In this document: one piece after another, positions 8,011 to 22,309 of the stretch
Layout: each line of letters begins with the position of its first letter
How positions within the stretch are numbered: position 1 is the stretch's first letter
DNA from: Stagnimonas aquatica
Lineage (GTDB): Bacteria > Pseudomonadota > Gammaproteobacteria > Nevskiales > Nevskiaceae
Length of the DNA stretch: 64,000 bases
NCBI RefSeq assembly: GCF_003730135.1
Contig: NZ_RJVO01000004.1
Coordinates: 248,001-312,000 of the forward strand
Direction: 5' to 3'
Position numbers and translations under genes: made by a program
The notes under the pieces: model-generated
Databases searched by the model: none
Told to the model about the DNA's origin: nothing
Seen by the model: the letters and a program-made list of their open reading frames with translations, nothing else

Positions 8011-8493
8011 ATGAGCGATCTCGAGCAGGGCAGTCTGGCCTATTTCCTATCCAAGCCGGTCAGCCCGCAGTGGGCGGATTTTCTGCGGGTGCTGGGCGAG
8101 GAACTGAGCGAGCAGATGAGTCCGGAGGAAATCCGGGCCTTCTTCCTGCTGCTGGGCCGCCGCATCGCCCGGCGTAATCCGCTGATCGCCGGTGAGACTC
8201 TGCAAGACCTCGAGCAGGCCGCGAACGAGCAGCTGCGCAACATGGGCTGGGGCTGGATGCGGGTGCGGGATCTGAACACCAGCCTGGAGTTCCTGCATTC
8301 CTGTGCGCCGCTGCGGCAGGCTTTCGGCGATGCCGCCATGGAATGGGCTCCGGGTTTGCTCGAAGGACTCTACAGCGACTGGCTCAAGCAGCTGGGGGCC
8401 GAGGAGACGCTGGTACTACAGCAACTGGGCAAGCCGGAGGGTGTGCAGGACACCCTGCGTTTTCGGTTGGCGCACCCGAGTCAGTTCCTCTAA
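8011..8493 (+). CDS. bcsD: Cellulose synthase subunit D
   Basis: 160 residues; ATG 8011 was chosen because GGAG lies 8 bases upstream. Features agree with BcsD: FLRVLGEELSEQMSPEEIRA, RNPLIAGETLQDLE, GWGWMRVRD and the C-terminal LRFRLAHPSQFL. In Komagataeibacter, BcsD forms octameric cylinders in the periplasm or cytosolic scaffold (reports differ by study) and promotes ordered, crystalline cellulose export. Usual family length is about 156. It is first in the operon here, 12 bases before the proline-rich gene, instead of last as in acetic acid bacteria. Confidence 0.88.
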   Translation: MSDLEQGSLAYFLSKPVSPQWADFLRVLGEELSEQMSPEEIRAFFLLLGRRIARRNPLIAGETLQDLEQAANEQLRNMGWGWMRVRDLNTSLEFLHSCAPLRQAFGDAAMEWAPGLLEGLYSDWLKQLGAEETLVLQQLGKPEGVQDTLRFRLAHPSQFL

Positions 8494-8505
8494 GGGAGGA
8501 TCGTC

Positions 8506-9462
8506 ATGTCGGAAAAAAGCGATGACATCAAGCAGCTGTTCTCCCATCTGGGGTTGAACCCCAGCGACTACCAGGAGATCCGCAGTGCGCCGAGCGCCAA
8601 TGCCACCGTGACCGAAGCGCCCCGGCGCTGGTCGCTGCTGCAGGCGACTAGCAAACAGCCGTTGCCGACCAAGGTCGCCCCCATCCTCAGCACTCCGCCT
8701 GCCGCCGTTCCGGCGGCGGTGCCGCGTGCGCCGGCCCCGGCCACGCCTTCGCAATGGGCCGAGTTGCTGCCGCGCGCCACCACGGCGCCGGCCGCTGTGC
8801 CGACCGTGGCCGTACCGACCGTTGCGGCGCCGGCGCCAGTGGCCGACCAGCCGCTGGCCGAGGGCCTGCGCTCGCTGTTCCAGTCGGTGCGCGAGCCGGT
8901 TCCGGTCGCGCCGCTGCCGACCGCTCCGACCCTGGCCGTGCCGCCGCCAGCGGAAGCTGCTGCCGAGCAGGTATACCGGGAACTGCGCGGCGGCGCGGCG
9001 ATCCCGCCGGCCCCCTTGCCGCCGCCGGCCTGGGCGGGCTACGACGCCGAGCAGGAAACCCGCTACGCCGTTCCGCCCGCCGCGAGCAAGCCGGCGGTCG
9101 TGCCGACCGCGCCGCTTGCTCCGGCGCCGATTCCGGCCCGTGTTGCTTCCACCATGCCACCGGCCGCCAGCCGGCCGGAGCCGCAACGCGCGGAATCTCC
9201 GGTGCCTGCCAAGAACCGCCAGCCGCCGCGCCCAGCGCCGCCGCCGGTGGCGGAGGCCGGTGCCGGGGTTGCGGAGCTGGGCGGCGATCTGCAAGCGGCG
9301 TTCCGTCGGTTGGCCGAACCCGAGCCGCCGCGCGCGGCCGCCAGCGGTCGGCTGCGTCTGCGTACCCCTGCCACGCCGCAGGTGCAGGGCAGCGCCAGTC
9401 GCGAGGCGCGGCTGGATGATGTACTGCGCCGCATCTCGGGCCACAATGGGCCGTCAAAATAG
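8506..9462 (+). CDS. Proline/alanine-rich cellulose biosynthesis protein with BcsR-like N-terminus (BcsP/BcsO-like)
   Basis: 318 residues. Residues 1-50 (DDIKQLFSHLGLNPSDYQEI then RRWSLLQATS) match the pattern of the small BcsR family, which in E. coli partners BcsQ. Residues 55-300 are low-complexity Ala/Pro/Val with no membrane segment or signal peptide, so it is probably cytoplasmic and disordered. A short conserved-looking tail RLDDVLRRISG ends it. Proline-rich BcsP/BcsO proteins are known in bcs operons, and the proline-rich BcsH scaffolds BcsD in Gluconacetobacter. The exact family name is uncertain. GGAGG precedes the ATG. Confidence 0.7.
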   Translation: MSEKSDDIKQLFSHLGLNPSDYQEIRSAPSANATVTEAPRRWSLLQATSKQPLPTKVAPILSTPPAAVPAAVPRAPAPATPSQWAELLPRATTAPAAVPTVAVPTVAAPAPVADQPLAEGLRSLFQSVREPVPVAPLPTAPTLAVPPPAEAAAEQVYRELRGGAAIPPAPLPPPAWAGYDAEQETRYAVPPAASKPAVVPTAPLAPAPIPARVASTMPPAASRPEPQRAESPVPAKNRQPPRPAPPPVAEAGAGVAELGGDLQAAFRRLAEPEPPRAAASGRLRLRTPATPQVQGSASREARLDDVLRRISGHNGPSK

Positions 9463-9486
9463 CGGACCGGCCGGCATACAAGGCGC

Positions 9487-10260
9487 ATGAATCCGAACAC
9501 CAACCGACTGATCGTTTCGATCGTGTCGCCGAAAGGCGGCGTCGGCAAAACCACCATCGCGGCCAACCTGGCGACGGCCCTGGCCGCGCGCGGGCAGGCC
9601 TCGCTGCTGGTGGATCTCGACTCCCAGAACAGCCTGCGCCTGCATCACCAGATGCCGCTGGACGATACCTCCGGCCTCGCGGTGCAGACCCTGCGCGGCC
9701 TGCCCTGGGCGGACTGTGTCTATCGCAGCCCCTATGGCATTGATTGTCTGCCGTTCGGACTGATTTCCGAATCGGATCGCCGGGAATTCGAGCGCCGGCT
9801 CGACAGCGATCCGACCTGGCTGGTGCGCAACCTCGACGCCCTGCGGCTGTCGCCCGGCAGCTATGTGATCGTCGACACCCCGCCGGGGGGCTCTGCTTAC
9901 CTGACCCAGGCGCTGCTGGCCGCCGATGTCGCGGTCTGCGTGCTGCTGCCGGACGCCGCCTCGTTCATCACCATCCCCTCGATGGAACGCTGGCTGGACG
10001 AGTACAGCCGCCCGCGCCCGGACTTTCAGGGCGGTTATTACCTGCTCAACCGCATGAACAATGCCCGGGTGCTGTGCCGTGACGTCGCCTCGGCGCTCGA
10101 GCGCGATCTCGGCGAGCGGCTGATTCCGGTGGAAGTGCATTTCGACTCCGCCGTCGAGGAAGCCCTGGCCTCGCAGACGCCGATCCTCAAGTACGCCCCG
10201 GAGTCGCCGGCCACCCGCGACATCACCGCGCTGGCGGACTGGCTGCTCAAGCTGCCATGA
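9487..10260 (+). CDS. bcsQ: Cellulose biosynthesis protein BcsQ (ParA/MinD-like ATPase)
   Basis: 257 residues. The deviant Walker A motif SPKGGVGKTTIAANLA sits near residue 15, and switch residues VDLDSQNSLR and VIVDTPPGGSAYL follow. BcsQ is a cytoplasmic MinD-family ATPase that locates or assembles the cellulose synthase and works with BcsR. Here the BcsR-like motif is on the preceding gene, 24 bases upstream. Its stop overlaps the BcsAB start (ATGA), so translation is probably coupled. Confidence 0.92.
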   Translation: MNPNTNRLIVSIVSPKGGVGKTTIAANLATALAARGQASLLVDLDSQNSLRLHHQMPLDDTSGLAVQTLRGLPWADCVYRSPYGIDCLPFGLISESDRREFERRLDSDPTWLVRNLDALRLSPGSYVIVDTPPGGSAYLTQALLAADVAVCVLLPDAASFITIPSMERWLDEYSRPRPDFQGGYYLLNRMNNARVLCRDVASALERDLGERLIPVEVHFDSAVEEALASQTPILKYAPESPATRDITALADWLLKLP

Positions 10261-13200
10261 GCGAACGCAATCCCAGTTATGTGCTGAGCAACGCCGCGCG
10301 GGTGGGACAGCCCTGGTCGCGGGTGCTGATCAACCAGAACTGGGACCGCCGCATCGAGCGGCTGATCGAACTGGGGGTCTGGGACTGGCGCTGGATGCTG
10401 CCGCTGAGCCTGCTGCTGTGCGCGATTCCGGCGGTGATGGTGGTGACCACGCCGCTATCGTTCGGCGGGCAGGTGCTGTTCGCGATCTGCACCTTCCTGC
10501 TGGCGGTGTGGCTGAACCGCATTGAAGGGCGCCTGGTCTCGCACATCCTCATGCTGCTGTCGGTGCTGGTCAGCACCCGCTACATGTACTGGCGGCTCAC
10601 CGAGTCGCTGGGCTCGATCTATTCGAGCGACCGCTACGGCGACATGTTCTTCTCCAGCGGCCTGCTGGCGGCGGAGTTCTACGCCTACGTGGTGCTGCTG
10701 CTCGGTTACTTCCAGGTGCTCTGGCCGCTCAATCGCAAGCCGACGCCGCTGCCCCGGGACCTCAAGGAATGGCCGGTGGTGGACATCTACATCCCCACCT
10801 ACAACGAGCCGCTGAAGGTGGTGCGGCCAACCATCCTCGCCGCGCTCGATGTCGACTGGCCGAAGGACAAGCTCAACGTCTACGTGCTCGACGACGGCAA
10901 GCGCCAGCAGTTCCGGGAGTTTTGCGAGCAGGTGGGTGCGATCCACATCACCCGCAACAACTCGCGGCATGCCAAGGCCGGCAATCTCAACGCCGCCATG
11001 CAGAAGACCCATGGCGAGTACATCGCCATCTTCGACTGCGACCACATTCCGACCCGCTCCTTCCTGCAGGTGACCATCGGGGGCTTCCTGCACGACCCCA
11101 AGCTGGCGATGGTGCAGACGCCCCACCATTTCTTTTCGCCCGACCCCTTCGAGCGCAATCTGGGCACCTTCCGCCAGGTGCCCAACGAGGGTGAGCTGTT
11201 CTACGGCCTGTTGCAGGACGGCAACGACTTCTGGGACGCCACCTTCTTCTGCGGCTCCTGCGCGGTCTTGCGGCGCACCGCGCTGGAGGAAGTCGGCGGC
11301 ATCGCCGTCGAGACCGTCACCGAGGACGCCCACACGGCGCTGAAGATGCACCGGCGTGGCTGGAGCACCGCCTATCTGAACATCGCCCAGGCCGCCGGTC
11401 TGGCGACCGAATCGCTGTCGGCGCACGTCGGTCAGCGCATCCGCTGGGCGCGCGGCATGGCGCAGATCTTCCGCACCGACAATCCCTTGCTCGGGCGCGG
11501 TCTGCACTTCGGCCAGCGGCTCTGCTACGCCAATGCCATGCTGCACTTCTTCTACGGATTGCCGCGCCTGGTGTTCATGACCGCGCCGCTGTCCTATCTG
11601 TTCTTCGAGGCACACATCATCAGCGCCGGCGCGCTGGTGATCGCCGCCTACGCGCTGCCGCACATCGCCCACGGCAACCTCACCAACTCGCGTATCCAGG
11701 GGCCGTACCGGCACTCGTTCTGGGCCGAGGTCTACGAGACGGTGCTGGCCACCTACATCATGTGGCCGACGCTGCTGGCGATGATCAACCCCAAGCTGGG
11801 TTCGTTCAACGTGACCGCCAAGGGCGGCATCAACGAGCGGACCTACTTCGACTCCGACATCGCCAAGCCCTACCTCTGGCTGCTGGTGCTGAATCTCGCC
11901 GGCGTCGCGGTGGGTATCGCCCGGGCGCTGAAGTTCAACACCCACGAGGTCGATACCGTGGTGCTGAACATCCTCTGGAGCGTCTACAACCTGATCATCA
12001 TCAGCGCCGCGCTGGCGGTGGCCTGGGAGTCCAAGCAGGTGCGCCGCTCGATCCGCGTCGACACCACCATCAACGCCCGGCTGCGGGTGCCGGACGGACC
12101 GATGATCGAGGCGGTGACCACCGATCTTTCCGAAGGCGGTGTCGGCCTCAAGCTGTCGCAGCCCTATCCCTTGCCCCAGGGCGCGGAAGTGCAGGTCGCC
12201 CTGGTGCCGGAGCGCAGCCTGGTCTGGACCCCGGTACGGGTGGTGCGCTCGCGCGGCGAGATGCTGACCCTGGAATTCCAGCCGCTGGACGTGGCACAGG
12301 AGCGGCAACTGGTCTACGCGCTGTTCGGCCGCGCCGACGCCTGGGTGGACTGGTCGGCCACCCGTCCGGTGGATCGCATCGGCGAAAGCTTCCGCACCAT
12401 TCTCGACTTCGGCCTGGCCGGGGCGATACACCTCACCAAATTCACTGCTCAGAACCTGAAGAGTTCCCTTATGGAAGCCCTGAATCGGATCTTTCCCAAA
12501 CTGAAGGCCGGCCGTGCCGCCGCTGTGCTGCTGCCGGCGCTGCTGGCCGCAGCTCTGCTGGGCCTGCCGCACCCGGCGCGCGCCCAGCAGGCCGACGCCG
12601 CCTCCGCACCCGCTGGAGACAACGCGCTCAGCGGCAGTCGGGTGGAATCGCGACTGCTGACCTTCCAGTCGATGGGCGCCCAGAAGCCGATCCGCCTGCG
12701 CGGTGTCACCGGCGAGATGACGCTGCCGGTGGCGGTGCGTGACGACGAGGTGGTGACCAAGGCGCGCCTGCGCCTGAAGTTTGCGCACTCGCCCTCGCTG
12801 ATCATGCCGCTCTCGCACATGAACGTGCTGGTCAACAACGAGCTGGCGGCGACCATCCAGTATTCGTCGGAGTCCGCCGGTGGTTCCGAGCGGATCATCG
12901 ACATCGACCCGCGCCTGTTCGTGGAATACAACCAGATCGGCCTGCAGGCGATCATGTCCTACACCATGGACTGCGAGAACCCGCTCGGCACCGGCCTGTG
13001 GACCATCGTCAGCAACAAGTCGACGCTGGAGATCGAGACCAAGCCGCTGGCGCTGCCGCAGGATCTCAATCTGCTGCCCAAGCCCTTCTTCGACGCCCGT
13101 GATTCCCGCAAGCTGACGCTGCCCTTCGTGTTCAGCGGCTCGCCGGGCCTGGAAGAACTGGACTCGGCGGCAGTGGTTTCGTCCTGGTTCGGCGCCCTGG

Positions 13201-14774
13201 CCGACTACCGTGGCGCCAGCTTCCCGGTCTATCTCGACCGCCTGCCGATGGGCCATGCGGTGGTGTTCGTGAACGGCAACCGCGCGCCGGCCGGCCTCAA
13301 CCTGCCCAGCGACGGCAGCAATGCCAAGATCATGCTGGTCGCCAATCCGCGCGATCCGATGTCCAGCCTGCTGGTCATCCGGGGCAGCACCGGTGAAGGT
13401 CTGAAGGCCGCCGCGCGCAGTCTTGCTCTGGGCGCCCAGGGCCTGTCCGGTGCCGAGGCGGTGATCCGCGAGTTCAAGGATCCGGGCGCACGCAAGCCCT
13501 ACGACGCGCCGCGCTGGATTCCCACCGACCGCCCGGTGCAGGTCGGCGAGCTGGCCCAGCCTTGGCAGCTGGAAGCGGCGGGTCTGTACCCCGATACCAT
13601 CCGCGTGCCCTTCCACGCGCCGCCGGATCTGTTCACCTGGCGCAGCAAGGGCATGAAGCTGGCGCTGAAGTACCGCTACACGCCCACCGTCGGCTCCAAG
13701 TCGACGCTCAACATCAGCATCAACAACGAGTTCGTCGAGGCCATCGCGCTGTCCTACAGCGGCGAGGACAAGGCGGCCGAGCAGCGCATCAAGCTGCCGT
13801 TCGTGTCGCAGTACGAGTCGGTCAACAGCGGCACCGTCTACGTGCCGGACTACAAGTTCAGCGCCGACAACACCCTGCAGTTCCAGTACTACTTCGAGCG
13901 CAAGAAGGAAGGCGCCTGCAAGGACGTGGTGCTCGACAATCTGCGCGGCGCCATCGACCAGGATTCGACCATCGACCTGTCGGCCTTCCCGCACTACACC
14001 GCGCTGCCGGAGCTGACCCTGTTCGCCAACGGCGGCTTCCCGTTCACCAAGTACGCGGACCTCAGCCAGACCGCGATTGTGATGCCGGACAACATCAACG
14101 CCGAGGAGATCGAGGCCTTCCTGACCGTGATGGGCCGCATCGGCAACGCTACCGGCTACCCGGCGCACCGCTTCGCGCTGGTTCGCGCCGCCGAGATCGA
14201 CGCCTACGACGACCACGACATCCTGATCCTGGGCAGCGCCGGCAACCAGCCGCTGCTGGAACGCTGGGCGAGCGCGATGCCGGTGGCGGTTGCCGACGGC
14301 GCGGTCAGCCTCAATGTGCTGGGTCCGATCGAGCGTCTGCGCGCGCGCTGGGAGGGTCGCGACCTCAGCGGCGCCATCGACCATGCCGGCCGGGTGGTGC
14401 TGGAAGCCGGGCGCTCCCTGGGGCTGATCATGAGCTTCGAGTCGCCGCTGTCGTCCAAGCGCACGGTGGTGGTGATGACCGCCGGTACGCCCAAGCGGCT
14501 GACCGAGGTCGCCAACCTGTTCACCGATGCCGGCAAGGCGCAGTTCGTGCGCGGCGACCTGGTGCTGTTCAACGGCGACCAGGTCAACAACTACCTGCTC
14601 GGGCCGCAGTACAACGTCGGCAGCCTGCCGCTGCTCACCCATCTGCGCTGGTGGGCTTCGCGTCAGCCGCTGGTGCTGGTGATGCTCTGCCTGCTGGCGG
14701 CGCTGCTGCTGGCGACGGTGCTGTACCGCTCGCTGCGGCGGATGGCGATGCGCCGCAAGCAGGTCGGTCATTGA
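10257..14774 (+). CDS. bcsAB: Fused cellulose synthase catalytic subunit BcsA and periplasmic subunit BcsB
   Basis: 1505 residues in one uninterrupted frame. Residues 1-738 are BcsA: membrane segments, GT2 catalytic residues D212/D213, D260xD262, TED (355-357) and QRIRW (393-397), then a PilZ domain with RxxxR (R596-R600) and D623xSxGG for c-di-GMP. Residues 739-1505 are BcsB: it opens with a typical signal peptide ending ARA at about 774, then jelly-roll/ferredoxin-like domains, with a C-terminal membrane anchor near 1475-1495. It polymerises UDP-glucose and guides the chain into the periplasm. Similar fusions are known in Komagataeibacter (AcsAB). An ATG at 12471 with GAAGAG upstream could start BcsB separately. 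Confidence 0.93.
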   Translation: MSERNPSYVLSNAARVGQPWSRVLINQNWDRRIERLIELGVWDWRWMLPLSLLLCAIPAVMVVTTPLSFGGQVLFAICTFLLAVWLNRIEGRLVSHILMLLSVLVSTRYMYWRLTESLGSIYSSDRYGDMFFSSGLLAAEFYAYVVLLLGYFQVLWPLNRKPTPLPRDLKEWPVVDIYIPTYNEPLKVVRPTILAALDVDWPKDKLNVYVLDDGKRQQFREFCEQVGAIHITRNNSRHAKAGNLNAAMQKTHGEYIAIFDCDHIPTRSFLQVTIGGFLHDPKLAMVQTPHHFFSPDPFERNLGTFRQVPNEGELFYGLLQDGNDFWDATFFCGSCAVLRRTALEEVGGIAVETVTEDAHTALKMHRRGWSTAYLNIAQAAGLATESLSAHVGQRIRWARGMAQIFRTDNPLLGRGLHFGQRLCYANAMLHFFYGLPRLVFMTAPLSYLFFEAHIISAGALVIAAYALPHIAHGNLTNSRIQGPYRHSFWAEVYETVLATYIMWPTLLAMINPKLGSFNVTAKGGINERTYFDSDIAKPYLWLLVLNLAGVAVGIARALKFNTHEVDTVVLNILWSVYNLIIISAALAVAWESKQVRRSIRVDTTINARLRVPDGPMIEAVTTDLSEGGVGLKLSQPYPLPQGAEVQVALVPERSLVWTPVRVVRSRGEMLTLEFQPLDVAQERQLVYALFGRADAWVDWSATRPVDRIGESFRTILDFGLAGAIHLTKFTAQNLKSSLMEALNRIFPKLKAGRAAAVLLPALLAAALLGLPHPARAQQADAASAPAGDNALSGSRVESRLLTFQSMGAQKPIRLRGVTGEMTLPVAVRDDEVVTKARLRLKFAHSPSLIMPLSHMNVLVNNELAATIQYSSESAGGSERIIDIDPRLFVEYNQIGLQAIMSYTMDCENPLGTGLWTIVSNKSTLEIETKPLALPQDLNLLPKPFFDARDSRKLTLPFVFSGSPGLEELDSAAVVSSWFGALADYRGASFPVYLDRLPMGHAVVFVNGNRAPAGLNLPSDGSNAKIMLVANPRDPMSSLLVIRGSTGEGLKAAARSLALGAQGLSGAEAVIREFKDPGARKPYDAPRWIPTDRPVQVGELAQPWQLEAAGLYPDTIRVPFHAPPDLFTWRSKGMKLALKYRYTPTVGSKSTLNISINNEFVEAIALSYSGEDKAAEQRIKLPFVSQYESVNSGTVYVPDYKFSADNTLQFQYYFERKKEGACKDVVLDNLRGAIDQDSTIDLSAFPHYTALPELTLFANGGFPFTKYADLSQTAIVMPDNINAEEIEAFLTVMGRIGNATGYPAHRFALVRAAEIDAYDDHDILILGSAGNQPLLERWASAMPVAVADGAVSLNVLGPIERLRARWEGRDLSGAIDHAGRVVLEAGRSLGLIMSFESPLSSKRTVVVMTAGTPKRLTEVANLFTDAGKAQFVRGDLVLFNGDQVNNYLLGPQYNVGSLPLLTHLRWWASRQPLVLVMLCLLAALLLATVLYRSLRRMAMRRKQVGH

Positions 14775-14792: not shown

Positions 14793-15959
14793 ATGCGTTA
14801 TGCGATCACGGCGGTCGCTGCCGCGATCACCGTCGTGGTGGCGGTGACGGCCTACAGCTACTGGCAGTGGAGCCGCCCCTGGCGCGCCTGGCAGTCGTAC
14901 CGCACGGTGTTCGTGCAGAACGACGGCCGGGTGATCGACCGCACCGCCGGCGACCGCAGTACTTCCGAGGGACAGGCCTACAGCCTGTTCTTCGCGCTGG
15001 TCGCCAATGACCGGCCGCTGTTTGACCGCATACTCGGCTGGACCGAAGCCAACCTCAGCGGCGGGCCTCTGGAACAGCGGCTGCCGGCCTGGCTCTGGGG
15101 CCTGCGCGAGGACGGCAGCTGGGGCGTCAAGGATCCCAACCCGGCCAGCGACGCCGATCTCTGGATCGCCTACAGCCTGATGGAGGCGGCGCGGCTCTGG
15201 CAGGCGCCGGCCTACGGCCGCAAGGGCAGGGCGCTGTTGAACCTCATCCGTGCCCAGGAGCTGGCGGAGGTGCCAGGGGTCGGCGTCATGCTGCTACCGG
15301 CGCCGCAGGGCTTCCAGCTTGAGGACGGCCGCTGGCGCCTGAACCCCAGCTACCTGCCGGAATTCCAGCTGCGCTACTTCGCCGGGATCGACCCCTACGG
15401 GCCCTGGAAGTCGGTCTGGAGCAATCACCTCACCCAGATGCAGCGCCTGTTGCGGAGCGGCATTGCTCCCGACTGGTATCAGGTCGATGCCGCCGGCAAG
15501 CCGCTGCTGGATGCGGTCAGTGGCGAGCGCAGCAGTTACGACGCCATCCGCGTCTACCTGTGGGCGGGGATCAGTGCGGTCGCCAGCGGCGAGCGTGCCG
15601 CCGCGCCGCTGCTACAACTACTTGCCCCCTACGCCGCTCTGGTCCGTGCCCAGGGCCAGCCGCCGGAGGTGGTCGATGCCGCCACTGGCCGGAGTTCCGG
15701 CGGTGCCCCCATTGGCTACTCTGCGGCCGTGTTGCCTTTCCTCGCAGTAGTGGATGAAGATACTGCTGCAACCCAGCGTGTCCGCTTGAAAAACAGTCGG
15801 CAGGAGGGGGGCGACGGCAACCTCGGAACGCCACCCCATTACTACGACCAGGTGCTCGCCCTGTTCGGAGAGGGGTGGGCCGAGCAGCGTTATCGCATTG
15901 ATACCCAGGGTCAGGTCATTCCACGATGGTCAAAGACATGTTGCGGCTGGCCCTACTGA
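14793..15959 (+). CDS. bcsZ: Periplasmic cellulase BcsZ (GH8 endoglucanase)
   Basis: 388 residues with an N-terminal signal or anchor segment (about 5-22). The GH8 general acid glutamate lies in STSEGQAYSLFFALVAND near residue 58, and PAWLWGLREDGSWGVKD and SSYDAIRVYLW (containing the conserved Asp) follow. It hydrolyses beta-1,4 glucan in the periplasm and is required for normal cellulose assembly in several species. Its 3' end overlaps the bcsC start by 34 bases. Confidence 0.95.
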   Translation: MRYAITAVAAAITVVVAVTAYSYWQWSRPWRAWQSYRTVFVQNDGRVIDRTAGDRSTSEGQAYSLFFALVANDRPLFDRILGWTEANLSGGPLEQRLPAWLWGLREDGSWGVKDPNPASDADLWIAYSLMEAARLWQAPAYGRKGRALLNLIRAQELAEVPGVGVMLLPAPQGFQLEDGRWRLNPSYLPEFQLRYFAGIDPYGPWKSVWSNHLTQMQRLLRSGIAPDWYQVDAAGKPLLDAVSGERSSYDAIRVYLWAGISAVASGERAAAPLLQLLAPYAALVRAQGQPPEVVDAATGRSSGGAPIGYSAAVLPFLAVVDEDTAATQRVRLKNSRQEGGDGNLGTPPHYYDQVLALFGEGWAEQRYRIDTQGQVIPRWSKTCCGWPY

Positions 15960-18900
15960 GTCTCGCGCTGGCCTGCGCCGCCGCGACGGCTCAGGCACAG
16001 CCGCCGACCGCAGCCGCGACCACCGACCAGCTTGCCACCCAGGCGCGCTACTGGGAGGGCAAGGGCCGCTATGACCTCGCCCGCGAGAACTGGCTGAAGC
16101 TGCTGCGGGTCTCGCCCGACAATCCCACGGCGCTATCCGGCCTGGCCAATGCCGAGGCAGTGAGTGGCCGTGGCGCCGCCGCCCAGGTGTATCTCGACCG
16201 GCTGCGGGAAGCACACCCCAATCACCCCGACCTGCGCCGCCTGGAAGCCGCGATCCGCGCCGGCAGCTACGATCCGGACAAGCTGGCGCAGCCGCGCGGT
16301 CTGGCCCGCCAGGGCAAGTACCAGCAGGCGGTGGAGGCCTACCGCAGCGTCTTCAACAACGACATCCCGGGTGGCCGTCTGGGCCTGGAGTACTACCAGA
16401 CCCTGGCCGGCACCGATAACGGCTGGCAGCCGGCCTATGCCGGCATCCAGAAGCTGGCGCAGGACAACCCGGGCGAGCCGATCTACCGGCTGGCGCTGGC
16501 CCAGCACCTCACCTACCAGGAACCGACCCGCCGCGAAGGCATCCGCAGCCTCGCCGAGCTGAGCAAGGACAGCACGCTGGCCAGCCCGGCCCGTCAGGCT
16601 TGGCGTCAGGCGCTGCTCTGGCTGGGCGCGAAGGCCGGAGACGAGAACCTGTACCAGGACTATCTGCGCCAGGGCGGCGACGACAGCCAGATCAGCGCCA
16701 AGCTCAACTCCCTGCGCGAGGCCCGCAGCAGCGCCGTGGTTGCTGCGCGCAGCGAGCCGGTCGATCAGCCGCCGAGCGCCGAGGAACTGCGCGGCCAGCT
16801 GGTCAAGCAGGGCTTCGACAGCCTCAACGACGGTCGTCTGGAGCTGGCCGAGGCGCAGTTCAACCAGGCTCTCAAGAACTACGGCGAGTCCGCCGACGTG
16901 CTCGGCGGTCTGGGCATCATCCGACTGCGCCAGGAGGCCTACGGCGAGGCCGCCGATCTGCTGGCACGGGCCTCCAATCTCAACAAGGCGCGCGCCAGCC
17001 GCTGGAAGGATGCCCTGGATACCGCCCGCTTCTGGCAGCTGGTGCGCGCTGCCGAGGCGGCGCGCAAGGCCGGCGACAACGCCCTGGCGGTGCGCGAACT
17101 GCGCCGGGCGCTGAGCCAGGATCCGCAGCGGGCCGCCGAACAGCCCACCGTGCGCATCAGCCTCGCCGACCTGCTGGTCGAGGAAGAGCAGCTGCCGGAG
17201 GCGGAGAAGATCTACCGCGACATCCTGCGCAGCCAGCCCGACAACGCCGATGCCCTGCGCAGCTTGATGGCGCTGCTGGCGCGCGACCGGCGGCTGCCGG
17301 AGGCCATCGCCCTGGGCGAGCGGGCGTCGCCGGAAGTGCGTGCCCAGCTGGGCGGTTTCGGGGTGCTCAAGGCCCAGAGCTTGCGCGACCAGGCTGGTGA
17401 GGCGCTCAAGGCCAAGGACGATGCCCGCGCCGAAGTCCTGCTCAAGGAAGCGCTGCTGGTCGACCCGGAGAGCCCCTGGACCCGTCTCGACCTGGCGCGC
17501 ATCTACCAGCGCCAGCAGCGCAGCCGCGAGGCCAGCACGCTGATCGACGGCCTGCTGGCGCCGGGCAGCGGCAATGTCCAGGCCGAGGCCCTGTACATCA
17601 AGGCGCTGCTGCTCGCCGAGCAACAGAACTGGTACGAGGGGCTGCAACTGCTGGAGCGGATCGAGCCCGGCGCGCGCAACGCCGGCATGACCGAGCTGCA
17701 GAAGCGGCTGTGGGTGCGCTACCAGACCCAGCGTGCCGGCGTGTATTCGCACCTGGGGCAGCCGGGCGTCGCCAGCCAGATCCTGGCCGAGGTCGAGCCC
17801 TATGCCGCCGACCAGCCGGAGTTGCTGGGTGCGCTGGCCACCGCCTATGCCGATGTCGGCGACGAGAGTCGCGCGCTGGCCTACATCCGGCAGGCCCTGA
17901 CCCGGACCAGCAACCCCGGGTCCGGCCTGCGTCTGCAATACGCCGGCCTGCTGTTCAAGCTGCGTCAGGACGCCGAGTTCGAAGTGGTGATGGAAGACCT
18001 GCTGCGCAAGGGCGACCTCGACGCCGAGCAGAGCCAGGGCCTGGCCAATTTGCGCATCGCCTACCGTCTGCGTCAGGCCGATCTGGTACGCGAAGAGGGC
18101 GACCTCGCCCGCGCCTACGAGTACCTGGAACCCCTGCTGCGCCTGAACCCCAAGGACCCGCGCCTGATGATGGCGCTGGCGAGGCTCTACAACGACTCCA
18201 AGGACTACGATCAGGCCTCTCGTCTGTATCGGCAGGTGCTGGCGCAGAACGATCAGGATCTTGATGCCTACAAGGGCGCGATCAATGCCGCGCTCTCGCT
18301 CTCGCAGTGGGACGAGGCCGATGCCCTGCTGGAGCGGGCCTTCGCACTCGATCCCGAGAACCCGCGCCTGTACGCGATGGCCGGTCGCTCGGCACGTGGC
18401 CGTGGCGACGACGGTCGCGCCCTGCAGCTGTTCCAGCAGGCGCTGCGCATCGACGCCCAGCGGGCCGGCGAAGGCGGCAACCCGTTCAGCAAGAGCAATG
18501 CCCAGCCGCTGCTGCAACTGATCGACCCCGCTGCCGCCGGCAGCCGGGTGCCGTATTCGCCGCAGGTGTTGGGTGCGCTCGCCCCGGTGCCGGCGGTGGC
18601 GGCCGTGAAGCCGGCCTCCGCCAGCCAAACACCGCAGCAGACCGCCGTGCTGGCCGTCGCCCGGTCCTCGTCCGCCAAGTCGATCCCGGCAGTCCGCGCC
18701 AAGCTGGCTCCGGCCGCAGTGCCGGTGCAGCTGGCCATGGGAAACGGATCGCGGCGGGCCGCCGTTCCGCTGCCGGCAGCGCGTCTCATGCGCGCCGCCT
18801 GGACCCGGGGCGATGTTTCGATCCCGGCCCGCCACACGGCAGGGCGGCTCTGGAAAGTGTCCACACCGCCTGAGAGCGGCCAGAGCAAGGCTGCCAGCGC

Positions 18901-20656
18901 TACCGTCAGCCGTCCCAGCGGCTACTGGGCGGAGGAGCTGCGCAGTAGCGGTGACAGCGCCGCCTATCGCTACGTCGAAGGCGCCAGCGGCGCCACGATG
19001 GCGCCAGCAGCGCCAGCGGCCACTGCTCCGGTTTATCGCAGCGTCCCCGCCAGCAGCCCGGCGCCGACCCCGATCACGCCGACGCGCAGCGAGTTTCCCG
19101 CGCCCCGTCGCGCCAACGGCACTGGCTTGCAGACCACCCTGAGCCGGCCGCAGCCCAGCCTGCGCGAAGAGTTGCTCGGCGACATCGCGGAGTTGCAGCC
19201 ACCGGCGGCGGGCGCGGCAGCCAAGGCAGCGCCGCAGATCTATTACGGCGACAGCTACGGCGTCTACGAGGTGCCGAGGCAGAGTGGTGGCTACTCCGCA
19301 CCGGTCGCCGCACCGCGCTACAGCCTGCCGCCACCGCCGCCCGCCCGCGTCGCCGGCCCGGCAATGGATTTCAAGCTCAGCCGTCCCGAGGTCGTGCTCA
19401 GCCAGGAGAGCAGCAGCCCGGAGGACCGCCGGCAGTTGCTGCGCGAGATCGGCGATCTGCGCGCCAAGCGCAGTCCCTACGGACAGATCGGCCTGAGCCT
19501 GCGCTCGCGCGACGGCGTCGAGGGCCTGGACCGGCTCGACGGCATCGAGGCGCCGGTGGAGATCGGGTTCCCGGCCACCGAGGCTGGCCGCTTCAAGTTT
19601 CGTGCGGTGCCGGTGTCGCTGGAGGCGGGCACCCTCTCCGGTCGCAGCCTGCCACTGTTCGGCACCCTGGGGCTGGCGACCGCCCTGGCCTCGGCCAACG
19701 GCGAGGACCCCACCACCATCACCAGCCGCCGCATCAGCCAGAGCGAGTCGGGCGTTGCCCTCGGGCTGGGTTACGAAGTGGGCGATTTTCGCGCCGACTT
19801 CGGTACCTCGCCGCTGGGCTTCCCGGTGGAAACCCTGGTCGGTGGCGTCAACTGGCGCCCCAGCGTCGGCCAGACCAGCTTCAAGATCGACGTCGCCCGC
19901 CGCTCGGTGACCGACAGCCTGCTGTCCTACGCCGGCGCCCGCGATCCCGGCACCGGTCTGGTCTGGGGCGGCGTGACCAAGACCGGCGGGCGCCTGGATG
20001 TCGCCTACGACCTCGGCCGCTATGGCGTCTATGGCAACGGCAGCTACTACCTGCTGGATGGCCAGCACCTGCCGGAGAACTCGGTGGTGGAGATCGGTGG
20101 TGGCCTTTATGCCCGCGCGGTCGAGCGTCGCAGCATGCGCCTCACCTACGGCCTCAACCTGACTGCCTTCGGCTACGACAAGAACCTGCGCCGGTTCAGC
20201 TTCGGGCACGGCGGCTACTTCAGCCCACAGTCCTACTTCGCGGTGAGCGTGCCGGTGGAGTGGGAGGGCTACTACAACCGCTTCAGCTACCGCATCGGCG
20301 GCGCCATCGGTATCCAGGCCTTCCGCGAGGACGGCGCCGGTTACTACCCCTCGGATGTTGGTCTCGCCGACGCTTACACGGCAGCGTTGGAACTGGCCGA
20401 CCCGGAGCTGCAGCTACAGGGCGGCTACAGCTCCAAGCAGTCCACTGGCATCGGCTTCAGCTTTGGCGGCCAGTTCGAATACCTGCTTGATCCCAATCTG
20501 TCCGCTGGCGCGCGGCTGTCCATCGACAATGCCCGCGACTACCAGGAAGGCAGCGCGCTGGGCTATCTGCGTTACAGCTTCTATCCGCAGAGCCGCGTCT
20601 CCAACCCGCCGGCCTTGCTGCTGCCTTACTTCAATTTCGGAGACCCCCGCCTATGA
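15926..20656 (+). CDS. bcsC: Cellulose export outer-membrane protein BcsC
   Basis: 1576 residues, longer than the approximately 1160 of the E. coli protein. A signal peptide (cleavage near AQAQ, residue 25) is followed by a long TPR superhelix to about residue 870, an Ala/Pro/Ser-rich low-complexity linker (about 880-1180), and a C-terminal beta-barrel domain (about 1230-1576) ending in aromatic FNFGDPRL. The TPR part scaffolds peptidoglycan and synthase contacts while the barrel lets cellulose cross the outer membrane. The start overlaps bcsZ; ATG 15938 is an equally good start that shortens the leader by four residues. Confidence 0.93.
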   Translation: MVKDMLRLALLSLALACAAATAQAQPPTAAATTDQLATQARYWEGKGRYDLARENWLKLLRVSPDNPTALSGLANAEAVSGRGAAAQVYLDRLREAHPNHPDLRRLEAAIRAGSYDPDKLAQPRGLARQGKYQQAVEAYRSVFNNDIPGGRLGLEYYQTLAGTDNGWQPAYAGIQKLAQDNPGEPIYRLALAQHLTYQEPTRREGIRSLAELSKDSTLASPARQAWRQALLWLGAKAGDENLYQDYLRQGGDDSQISAKLNSLREARSSAVVAARSEPVDQPPSAEELRGQLVKQGFDSLNDGRLELAEAQFNQALKNYGESADVLGGLGIIRLRQEAYGEAADLLARASNLNKARASRWKDALDTARFWQLVRAAEAARKAGDNALAVRELRRALSQDPQRAAEQPTVRISLADLLVEEEQLPEAEKIYRDILRSQPDNADALRSLMALLARDRRLPEAIALGERASPEVRAQLGGFGVLKAQSLRDQAGEALKAKDDARAEVLLKEALLVDPESPWTRLDLARIYQRQQRSREASTLIDGLLAPGSGNVQAEALYIKALLLAEQQNWYEGLQLLERIEPGARNAGMTELQKRLWVRYQTQRAGVYSHLGQPGVASQILAEVEPYAADQPELLGALATAYADVGDESRALAYIRQALTRTSNPGSGLRLQYAGLLFKLRQDAEFEVVMEDLLRKGDLDAEQSQGLANLRIAYRLRQADLVREEGDLARAYEYLEPLLRLNPKDPRLMMALARLYNDSKDYDQASRLYRQVLAQNDQDLDAYKGAINAALSLSQWDEADALLERAFALDPENPRLYAMAGRSARGRGDDGRALQLFQQALRIDAQRAGEGGNPFSKSNAQPLLQLIDPAAAGSRVPYSPQVLGALAPVPAVAAVKPASASQTPQQTAVLAVARSSSAKSIPAVRAKLAPAAVPVQLAMGNGSRRAAVPLPAARLMRAAWTRGDVSIPARHTAGRLWKVSTPPESGQSKAASATVSRPSGYWAEELRSSGDSAAYRYVEGASGATMAPAAPAATAPVYRSVPASSPAPTPITPTRSEFPAPRRANGTGLQTTLSRPQPSLREELLGDIAELQPPAAGAAAKAAPQIYYGDSYGVYEVPRQSGGYSAPVAAPRYSLPPPPPARVAGPAMDFKLSRPEVVLSQESSSPEDRRQLLREIGDLRAKRSPYGQIGLSLRSRDGVEGLDRLDGIEAPVEIGFPATEAGRFKFRAVPVSLEAGTLSGRSLPLFGTLGLATALASANGEDPTTITSRRISQSESGVALGLGYEVGDFRADFGTSPLGFPVETLVGGVNWRPSVGQTSFKIDVARRSVTDSLLSYAGARDPGTGLVWGGVTKTGGRLDVAYDLGRYGVYGNGSYYLLDGQHLPENSVVEIGGGLYARAVERRSMRLTYGLNLTAFGYDKNLRRFSFGHGGYFSPQSYFAVSVPVEWEGYYNRFSYRIGGAIGIQAFREDGAGYYPSDVGLADAYTAALELADPELQLQGGYSSKQSTGIGFSFGGQFEYLLDPNLSAGARLSIDNARDYQEGSALGYLRYSFYPQSRVSNPPALLLPYFNFGDPRL

Positions 20657-21474
20657 GCCGCCGCGACCTGCTGAAGGCGCTGCCGCTGCTGGCCTGCGTC
20701 GCCTGCGCTTCCGCGCCGCCGCAGAGCCCGGTGCCGGCCCCGGCCGGGATGGCCGGAGTCGCCTATCCAGGTGCCTACGGCGCCAGGGCGGATCAGCGCT
20801 ACCTGGCGCAGCCGCCGACGCTGGGGCAGCCGATCCGCCCACCGGCTGCGGCGATGCCAACGGCCAAGTTCGGCGAGGCCGATGCCGGTCTGCAAGGCAT
20901 GGCCGAGGGCGAGACCGAGCGCGCCGAGCAGAGCTTCGAGCGGGCGCTGGAGGTCAATCCTTTCGATCCGGTCGCGCTCAACAATCTCGCCGTCGCCAAG
21001 GCCGAGCAGGGCCAGTTTCACGAGGCCGCCGCGATGCTGGAACGCGCCGCCAAACTGCAACCGGACAATGCCGAGATCGCCGCCAACCTGGCGCGTCTAC
21101 GCGGCTATGTGCAGGGCTATGCGATGGCCGGTGTCGAACCGGCCGGCCAGAGTCCCGCCGCGATCAATGGCAGCCTGCCGCCCGCGCCGCCGGCTCTATG
21201 GGGTAGCCGCCGGGTCAGCCAGCCCAGCTATGGTGCTGCGGTGCTGGTGGACGACGGCGGTTTGGCCCTGCCGGCCTCGGTCCCGTCCGCCAGTGCAGCG
21301 AGCCGGGTGTCGAACGCGGCGGCGGGATCGTTCGCCACTGGCGACGGCAGCGGCTACTACATCTCCGAGGCCTGCCGCGAACCGAGCGCCGCCGCGCCGG
21401 CGAAGAAGAAGAGCAAACCGAAAACCGTCAGTCGCAGCGGTCCCAGTAGCGGCTGCCCCACTCCTGCGCCCTGA
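20653..21474 (+). CDS. TPR-repeat lipoprotein-like gene at the end of the cellulose operon
   Basis: 273 residues, coupled to bcsC by ATGA overlap. The N-terminus MSRRDLLKALPLLACVACAS has a charged start, a short hydrophobic core and cysteines at 15 and 18, consistent with a lipoprotein signal, although neither lipobox is textbook. Residues about 73-155 hold two TPR units (AEQSFERALEVNPFDPVALN; FHEAAAMLERAAKLQPDNAE). The remainder is Ala/Ser/Pro-rich, ending in a Lys-rich patch. Not a standard bcs gene that I recognise. Likely periplasmic or outer-membrane anchored and possibly a partner of the BcsC TPR domain; that role is inference. Confidence 0.75.
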   Translation: MSRRDLLKALPLLACVACASAPPQSPVPAPAGMAGVAYPGAYGARADQRYLAQPPTLGQPIRPPAAAMPTAKFGEADAGLQGMAEGETERAEQSFERALEVNPFDPVALNNLAVAKAEQGQFHEAAAMLERAAKLQPDNAEIAANLARLRGYVQGYAMAGVEPAGQSPAAINGSLPPAPPALWGSRRVSQPSYGAAVLVDDGGLALPASVPSASAASRVSNAAAGSFATGDGSGYYISEACREPSAAAPAKKKSKPKTVSRSGPSSGCPTPAP

Positions 21475-21541: not shown

Positions 21542-22309
21542 TCAGCCGGCAATCGACTCATACAGCGCCAGATACTCCTGGGTAATGCGGTGCGAGCGCT
21601 CCAGGTGCACCAGCGGCAGATGGCGGTCGTGGGATTCCTTCACCTTCACCGAGCTGCCGATGGTCTGTTCCAGCACCGGTCGGCCTTCCGCCTTCAGCTC
21701 GTTGACCAGGCGCTGCGGCAGATTGGAGCGGGCCTGGAACTGGTTGACGACGATCCCCTCGATGGCGAGGTCGTCGTTATGGTCGGCGCGGATTTCCTGG
21801 ATGTTGTCGAGCAGGGTGTAGAGCGCCTGGCGCGCGAACTCGTCGCAATCGAAGGGGATCAGCACCCGGTCGGCGGCGATCAGCGCCGAGCGCGAGTAGA
21901 AGTTGAGCGCCGGCGGGGTGTCGATGAACACCGCGTCGTAGCCTTTCAGCTTCTTCAGCGCGTCGCGCAGCTTGTAGATCTTCTGCTTGGCTTCCAGTTT
22001 GACGATCAGCTCCTCCAGCTTGGGGCTGGAAGCCACCACGTCGAGGTTCTCGAACGGGGTATTGGTGGCGAAGCTCATCAGCGGCGGCATCTGCAGGGTG
22101 AAGCTGAGCGTCGCCTCGAAGAAGTCGGCGATGCTGCGGTCGGCCTTGAGTCCGCCGGAGCCCAGCAGGTACTGGGTGGAGTTGCCCTGGGTGTCGAGGT
22201 CGATCACCAGGGTACGCAGGCCGGAAGCCGCCGCGATGGCGGCGAGATTGCAGACGATGGTGGTCTTGCCGACCCCGCCTTTCTGGTTGAAGACAACGCG
22301 CTTGATCAT
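21542..22309 (-). CDS. Orphan ParA family ATPase
   Basis: 255 residues. Deviant Walker A VFNQKGGVGKTTIVCNLAAI at the N-terminus, Walker A' VIDLDTQGNSTQYLL and FIDTPPALNFYSRSALIAAD follow. This is the Soj/ParA type of partition ATPase, but no parB, plasmid replication gene or parS-like array is adjacent. Chromosomal orphan ParAs can position other cargo such as chemoreceptors or secretion machines. It converges on the cellulose operon and is preceded by 130 bases with no clear signal. Cargo unknown. Confidence 0.88.
   Translation of the reverse strand: MIKRVVFNQKGGVGKTTIVCNLAAIAAASGLRTLVIDLDTQGNSTQYLLGSGGLKADRSIADFFEATLSFTLQMPPLMSFATNTPFENLDVVASSPKLEELIVKLEAKQKIYKLRDALKKLKGYDAVFIDTPPALNFYSRSALIAADRVLIPFDCDEFARQALYTLLDNIQEIRADHNDDLAIEGIVVNQFQARSNLPQRLVNELKAEGRPVLEQTIGSSVKVKESHDRHLPLVHLERSHRITQEYLALYESIAG

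Follow-up and report, generated by a model that had tools for sequence, protein, structure and literature searches.

A bcsP gene with a BcsR-like N-terminus in the cellulose operon of Stagnimonas aquatica: predicted sockets for BcsA, BcsQ and BcsD

How BcsD scaffolds align cellulose synthases, and how small cytosolic partners switch these on, is still being worked out. BcsD forms octamers. We analysed a 64,000-nucleotide stretch of Stagnimonas aquatica DNA (contig NZ_RJVO01000004.1, positions 248,001 to 312,000; referred to as the window) for the gene bcsP, which lies between bcsD and bcsQ of a cellulose operon. The closest described proteins are BcsP of beta-proteobacteria, BcsR of Escherichia coli and BcsH (CcpAx) of Gluconacetobacter. 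Operons of the E. coli BcsR type are, to our knowledge, without bcsD. Section 9 of PMC11470070 describes them as operons with bcsE. The same section, citing Sana 2024, describes beta-proteobacterial BcsP as proline-rich, with an N-terminus homologous to BcsR, as recruiting BcsD into cytoskeletal assemblies, and as apparently enhanced when BcsQ is co-expressed; its N-terminus is modelled there on BcsA. For E. coli BcsR it reports that the N-terminal hairpin (D21, L25, F29, L31, Y36 and other residues) plugs into BcsA, and that the C-terminal helices bind the BcsQ dimer.

The window gene is bcsP of a BcsD-type cellulose operon from the Nevskiaceae and a further member of the published BcsP kind. 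Like BcsP of beta-proteobacterial bcsPDQ clusters as described in PMC11470070, the protein is proline-rich, has a BcsR-like N-terminus and is encoded next to bcsD and bcsQ; a C-terminal F-x-R-L-like box is shared with the Burkholderiales BcsP sampled here. It differs from the beta-proteobacterial proteins in its host family, in length (318 amino acids (aa); for 30 Burkholderiales BcsP sampled from loci with bcsQ the median is 219), in having two C-terminal boxes, in the distance between two marker residues of the N-terminus (Tyr to Trp, 20 versus 15-16) and in scoring under the NCBIfam BcsP cut-off. Identically spaced plug residues and an RWxLL box are common to window BcsP and E. coli BcsR (YhjR, type II systems), whereas BcsR has 62 aa (6yar_C) and neither the long tail nor the C-terminal module. 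BcsH resembles window BcsP in being proline-rich and organising BcsD; compared by description only, it differs in that no BcsR-like part is mentioned for it in section 9 of PMC11470070.

As a whole, the data are best explained by bcsP encoding a mostly disordered adaptor with three short sockets, for BcsA, BcsQ and BcsD (probability about 0.77). Residues ~4-27 would form a BcsR-type hairpin plugging into the catalytic subunit BcsA and favouring its active state. The RWSLL box just behind the hairpin would bind the ATP-bound BcsQ dimer, like the C-terminal helices of E. coli BcsR, and a C-terminal module (C-module) of two F-x-R-L-like helices with a short L-x-L stretch between them would bind BcsD. 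One BcsP chain could then tie BcsD scaffolds to BcsQ and the synthase, lining up synthases for secretion. We infer from sequence comparison and from analogy with the described systems that all three contacts hold in S. aquatica. An earlier note on this DNA had suggested that a single chain bridges BcsQ and BcsD. This agrees with the BcsP published for relatives and so is not new; the idea was already in print in essence, since PMC11470070 describes BcsP as a BcsR-like N-terminus combined with BcsD recruitment. The third partner, BcsA, was absent from the suggestion.

The genes and protein parts concerned are the following (evidence in brackets).

8011..8493, + strand: bcsD, scaffold subunit, 160 aa (Pfam Cellsynth_D 75.4 bits, cut-off 23).
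8506..9462, + strand: bcsP, candidate adaptor protein, 318 aa (Pfam CBP_BcsR 33.6 bits, neighbours, ratio of nonsynonymous to synonymous substitution rates (dN/dS)).
8521..8580, + strand: BcsP N-module, ~residues 6-25, predicted BcsA plug (pattern conservation, E. coli BcsR spacing, helices 4-14 and 19-27).
8626..8640, + strand: BcsP Trp box R41-W-S-L-L45, predicted BcsQ socket (E. coli BcsR match; tracks bcsQ).
8641..9279, + strand: Ala/Pro-rich, mostly disordered linker, residues 46-258 (low predicted local distance difference test score (pLDDT), two short helices at 151-161 and 181-186, composition, dN/dS).
9280..9441, + strand: BcsP C-module, residues 259-312, predicted BcsD socket (C-box counts, profile comparison, helices 260-270 and 299-311).
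9487..10260, + strand: bcsQ, MinD-like ATPase, 257 aa (TIGR03371 233.5 bits, cut-off 157.85).

BcsP and its BcsR-like N-terminus

Comparisons were made with two samples of loci. For the first, BcsD loci were taken from the window's own order (40 of 85 genomes with BcsD; 39 besides the window used), and further loci from the family of a Curvibacter metagenome-assembled genome (MAG; 35 of 399 genomes) and from three named plasmid records. Of the resulting 77 loci 72 were scored; four (L081, L094, L163, L179) stop inside or next to bcsP, and a fifth (L100) is cut inside bcsQ. The second sample comprised 47 loci, 45 of them counted (L210 and L211 had no open reading frame (ORF) with an N-module). 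The Trp-box pattern was set independently of this sample, some of whose loci came from the genera of two bcsQ-less genomes. Of the 30 genomes with BcsD in the sampled genus, G1434 and G1440 were left out. A class-wide search for BcsD in 369 genomes found it just in the window's genome and one more of the same order, and yielded no outgroup.

bcsP was found where the earlier note had placed it, at 8506-9462 between bcsD (8011-8493) and bcsQ (9487-10260), with an ATG start preceded by a GGAGG-like site. Compared with its nearest relative (L078), dN/dS was ~0.007 for residues 1-50, 0.27 for residues 51-255 and 0.19 for residues 256-318, and 20 of the 21 differing codons in residues 1-50 were synonymous. 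Given these low ratios, bcsP is a real gene. An artefactual reading frame in GC-rich DNA was considered and rejected by substitution pattern and conservation.

Profile search confirmed the BcsR-like N-terminus that had been noticed before. Residues 5-47 matched Pfam CBP_BcsR (PF10945) with 33.6 bits (E 3e-8, cut-off 25.2), and the first 51 residues by themselves with 40 bits (E 3e-10). The score against NCBIfam BcsR_only (NF040717) was 22.2 bits (cut-off 46). This score and the length of 318 aa with a long tail, compared with about 60 aa for a stand-alone BcsR, place the protein outside the BcsR-only class. A search of PDB chains gave no match to BcsP up to E 1. An AlphaFold model (single chain, 13-row alignment; mean pLDDT 54) was used solely for helix positions and contained helices at residues 4-14, 19-27, 151-161, 181-186, 260-270 and 299-311. 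The long disordered Ala/Pro tail of the earlier note was borne out by composition (60 Pro and 64 Ala in 318 residues) and by this pLDDT; it is not featureless, since pLDDT and helix positions together indicate mostly disorder up to a conserved module at the end (~259-312), in which two helices are predicted.

The spacing 4-4-2-5 is common to D7-L11-L15-L17-Y22 of the window protein and D21-L25-F29-L31-Y36 of E. coli BcsR (6yar_C). A pattern of about that spacing was present in 63 of 72 BcsP loci. A profile was built from the first 30 residues of long Nevskiales BcsP, with the threshold set at 1% of shuffles; 32 of 34 Burkholderiales BcsP exceeded it. In E. coli BcsR, the counterpart of the N-module is the part that plugs into BcsA, and the same BcsA contact is predicted for BcsP.

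The second BcsR-like part, RWSLL (R41-L45), corresponds to R51-W52-P-L-L55 of E. coli BcsR (6yar_C). Measured from the Tyr of the N-module, the Trp follows at a distance of 16 residues in E. coli BcsR, 15-16 in 29 scored Burkholderiales and 20 in the window. In five of 14 scored Nevskiales this distance is 19-20, and in the other nine it is 66-160, so that N-module and Trp box, contiguous in BcsR, are separated in these nine by a long stretch. To judge by these spacings, a linker is inserted between the two BcsR halves in most scored Nevskiales, which suggests separate, tethered sockets.

The Trp box, bcsQ and short BcsP

The strict Trp-box pattern was present in 45 of 46 first-sample loci with bcsQ directly downstream, the exception reading GWPLL. 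Without bcsQ it was found in 0 of 26, a looser pattern likewise in none, and 23 of these 26 BcsP contain no Trp whatsoever. In the second sample the box was detected by script in 38 of 40 loci with bcsQ and in 0 of 5 without. One of the two misses (L198) was due to a wrong ORF choice, the ORF after bcsD reading RWPLL; the other (L217) reads WRLL. Over both samples the box was thus scored in 86 of 86 loci in which bcsQ follows directly, 83 times by pattern and 3 times by eye, and in 0 of 31 bcsD loci where bcsQ does not. Shuffled BcsP gave the pattern in 306 of 14400 cases. For the first sample the raw Fisher value is 1e-18, a figure that ignores relatedness and is not to be leaned on.

Relatedness was taken into account with a 114-row BcsA tree, in which the window is one row. 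Two loci with partial BcsA (L178, L180) were removed by hand, L181 and L215 gave no BcsA, and 'box present' was set by hand for L174, L198 and L217. On this tree three changes are needed to account for bcsQ presence and three for the Trp box. Rows without bcsQ fall into three clades (22, 6 and 2 rows), and the box is absent in all of them. L170 and L222 are a bcsQ-less pair inside the sampled genus, of which the other 26 fetched members keep both bcsQ and box (L217 by eye). These comparative data fit the Trp box as a BcsQ socket, from which we infer the contact.

A move of bcsQ to another place in the genome was rejected for 24 of the 27 genomes searched (22 Nevskiales, 4 Burkholderiales and G031; the five bcsQ-less genomes of the second sample were outside the search), as no BcsQ above the TIGR03371 cut-off was found anywhere in them. 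Weaker ParA/MinD-like matches occurred in all 27 and also in most control genomes. The other three genomes (G040, G041, G049) have a BcsQ above cut-off, each ~2 kb from a separate BcsR-only gene; each has two cellulose loci, one with bcsD and no bcsQ, the other, apart from it, with BcsR and BcsQ. At L199 and L200, BcsQ-like genes are found on both sides of bcsD-bcsP, one upstream and one downstream.

In 22 Nevskiales loci (L058-L077, L095, L182) bcsD is followed by a gene for a 120-196 aa protein and then by bcsA, and there is no bcsQ. Nine Burkholderiales loci share the order bcsD-short BcsP-bcsA, four in the first and five in the second sample (L148, L151, L167, L170, L213-L216, L222). These proteins, for which the name short bcsQ-less BcsP was coined here, have the N-module, the proline-rich middle, the C-terminal box and the gene position adjoining bcsD in common with window BcsP, and differ from it in having no Trp box and no bcsQ at the locus. 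Four of them were tested, and all scored under the Pfam and NCBIfam cut-offs. Genome G031 (L026, L097) has neither BcsD nor a BcsQ above cut-off; shortly upstream of its bcsA it encodes a small stand-alone protein that carries just the N-module.

The C-module and the competing explanations

The C-module of the window protein consists of box A265-F-R-R-L269, a short L-x-L stretch and box V306-L-R-R-I310. Searched in the last 90 residues, the box pattern [VAILTMS][FL]x[RK][LMI] was present in 68 of 71 BcsP versus 5.3 expected from shuffles (L149, in which the frame runs on, was also omitted from this count). The module is common to long and short Nevskiales BcsP (profile comparison: probability 90, E 1.4e-6, 55 columns). 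Two boxes 36-50 residues apart were seen in 29 of 37 Nevskiales proteins, by a looser pattern without shuffle control. None of nine BcsR-only proteins exceeded the 1% shuffle threshold with the C-module profile. These results fit a module typical of proteins from bcsD loci, and its distribution, together with the published BcsP-BcsD link, suggests that it is the BcsD site.

Several observations weigh against the three-socket adaptor. The profile check against BcsR and BcsP families proposed in the earlier note was passed for Pfam CBP_BcsR only; with NCBIfam NF040718 (BcsP_of_Ic, cut-off 55 bits) the whole protein scored 33.0 and its N-terminal piece 37.2 bits. Because of this score, window BcsP is a BcsP in the wider sense, outside the narrow NF040718 (Caballeronia BcsP, 86.8 bits). 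The AlphaFold model has a low mean pLDDT and no helix at the Trp box. The N-module pattern was missed in 9 of 72 loci, and the N-module profile exceeded its threshold in just 14 of 22 short BcsP and 4 of 9 BcsR-only proteins, where it is weak. Three Burkholderiales BcsP have no C-box, and the C-module profile passed in just 19 of 34 BcsP of that order and in 11 of 22 short BcsP. Of the nine BcsR-only proteins, three contain the bare box pattern (LLxRL, LLxKL) directly behind the Trp box, so that the box by itself does not single out bcsD loci. In three of the 86 loci scored as having the Trp box, the script had missed it and the call was by eye. There are just three independent joint losses of Trp box and bcsQ; all three pairs agree, and with so few the tree-aware sign test (p 0.25) cannot reach significance. 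Finally, an annotated BcsP with Trp box is found in a Burkholderia multivorans plasmid record (L100, 6444-7493) in which bcsQ is not intact: bcsD and bcsP are, a break lies near the bcsQ start, and a sugar transporter gene follows. This loss looks recent, because the operon is cut inside bcsQ.

That the C-module binds another partner (e.g. BcsA, BcsB or itself) while BcsD is held by the proline-rich linker is unlikely, and has some points in its favour: the BcsD link is one of co-occurrence, in which bcsD-adjoining BcsP were set against nine BcsR-only proteins from a different operon type, three of the nine match the bare box pattern, and a homotypic helix pair is possible. The middle region speaks against it, being faster evolving and without a conserved box (1 of 33 versus 0.9 expected, no excess), as does the occurrence of the module in long and short BcsP, whose shared neighbours are bcsD and bcsA. 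We regard it as improbable that the link between Trp box and bcsQ reflects shared descent, with three old lineages that happen to differ in both. Three changes per trait and the sign test would allow this; the changes nevertheless fall on the same three supported clades, including the pair L170/L222 within a genus otherwise keeping both, and in E. coli BcsR the sequence homologous to the box belongs to the BcsQ-binding C-terminal half (section 9 of PMC11470070; 6yar_C).

Very little credit is given to the explanation that the BcsR-like part is vestigial and the protein merely a proline-rich BcsD partner of the BcsH kind. The mostly disordered chain, and bcsQ-less relatives that get by without the BcsQ half, would agree with it, but residues 1-50 are the most constrained region (dN/dS ~0.007), the Trp box is kept in the sampled bcsQ loci and the N-module spacing equals that of E. 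coli.

Beyond the three-socket adaptor of the window, we lean slightly towards seeing BcsP and BcsR as one modular family of linear adaptors, in which sockets would be gained, lost and re-spaced with the operon partners. Short BcsP would link the synthase directly to BcsD without BcsQ, and the BcsA plug and the BcsQ clamp would be mechanically independent, because the BcsR halves would be able to work on a 66-160 residue tether. This modular reading is supported, at the level of sequence, by the three joint losses and the split spacing, and is the part that merits specialists' attention. Neither a C-module nor a bcsQ-less BcsP was named in any title among the literature listings, a narrow survey that did not extend to the contents of Sana 2024 and Abidi 2022. 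The natural variants separate the three presumed BcsP jobs without mutagenesis and a short testable box is named for each partner, so that the division of labour (BcsA activation, BcsQ binding, BcsD scaffolding) is directly testable. A class of BcsQ-independent cellulose systems is predicted, with an adaptor that Pfam and NCBIfam models missed in the four cases tested.

Operon and genome context

The genome of the window (3.8 Mb, 15 contigs) contains one PF10945 match, one BcsD and one BcsQ above family cut-off; hence one such cellulose system was found. Among PDB BcsD chains, bcsD matched 8pkd (E 1.3e-25), 8poc, 8pog and 3a8e. Named relatives by BcsD came from 14 loci. Two MAGs are nearest, one from the Nevskiaceae with 91% BcsD identity and one of Stagnimonas with 80%; the others belong to Hydrocarboniphaga, Solimonas, Nevskia, Sinimarinibacterium, a Sinobacteraceae MAG and one Curvibacter MAG. 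In alphaproteobacterial and Enterobacter bcsD plasmid records, the gene tables of which are incomplete, no BcsP was listed; the equally incomplete tables of the alphaproteobacterial bcsD records listed no BcsH gene.

Downstream of bcsQ the operon continues as follows.

10257..14774, + strand: fused bcsA-bcsB cellulose synthase (Pfam glycosyltransferase, PilZ and BcsB domains within a single ORF).
14793..15959, + strand: bcsZ, family 8 endoglucanase (Pfam Glyco_hydro_8).
15926..20656, + strand: bcsC, tetratricopeptide repeat (TPR) and outer-membrane export protein (Pfam BCSC_C 346 bits, TPRs).

BcsA and BcsB form a single reading frame of 1505 aa (10257-14774). BcsC (15926-20656) contains a long Ala/Pro-rich stretch (~residues 880-1200) between the TPRs and the C-terminal barrel, within which there are short Leu-rich stretches of a similar kind. 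The end of bcsC is overlapped by a gene for a TPR protein (20653-21474), which may be a further member of the operon and is adjoined by a ParA-like gene on the minus strand (21542-22309).

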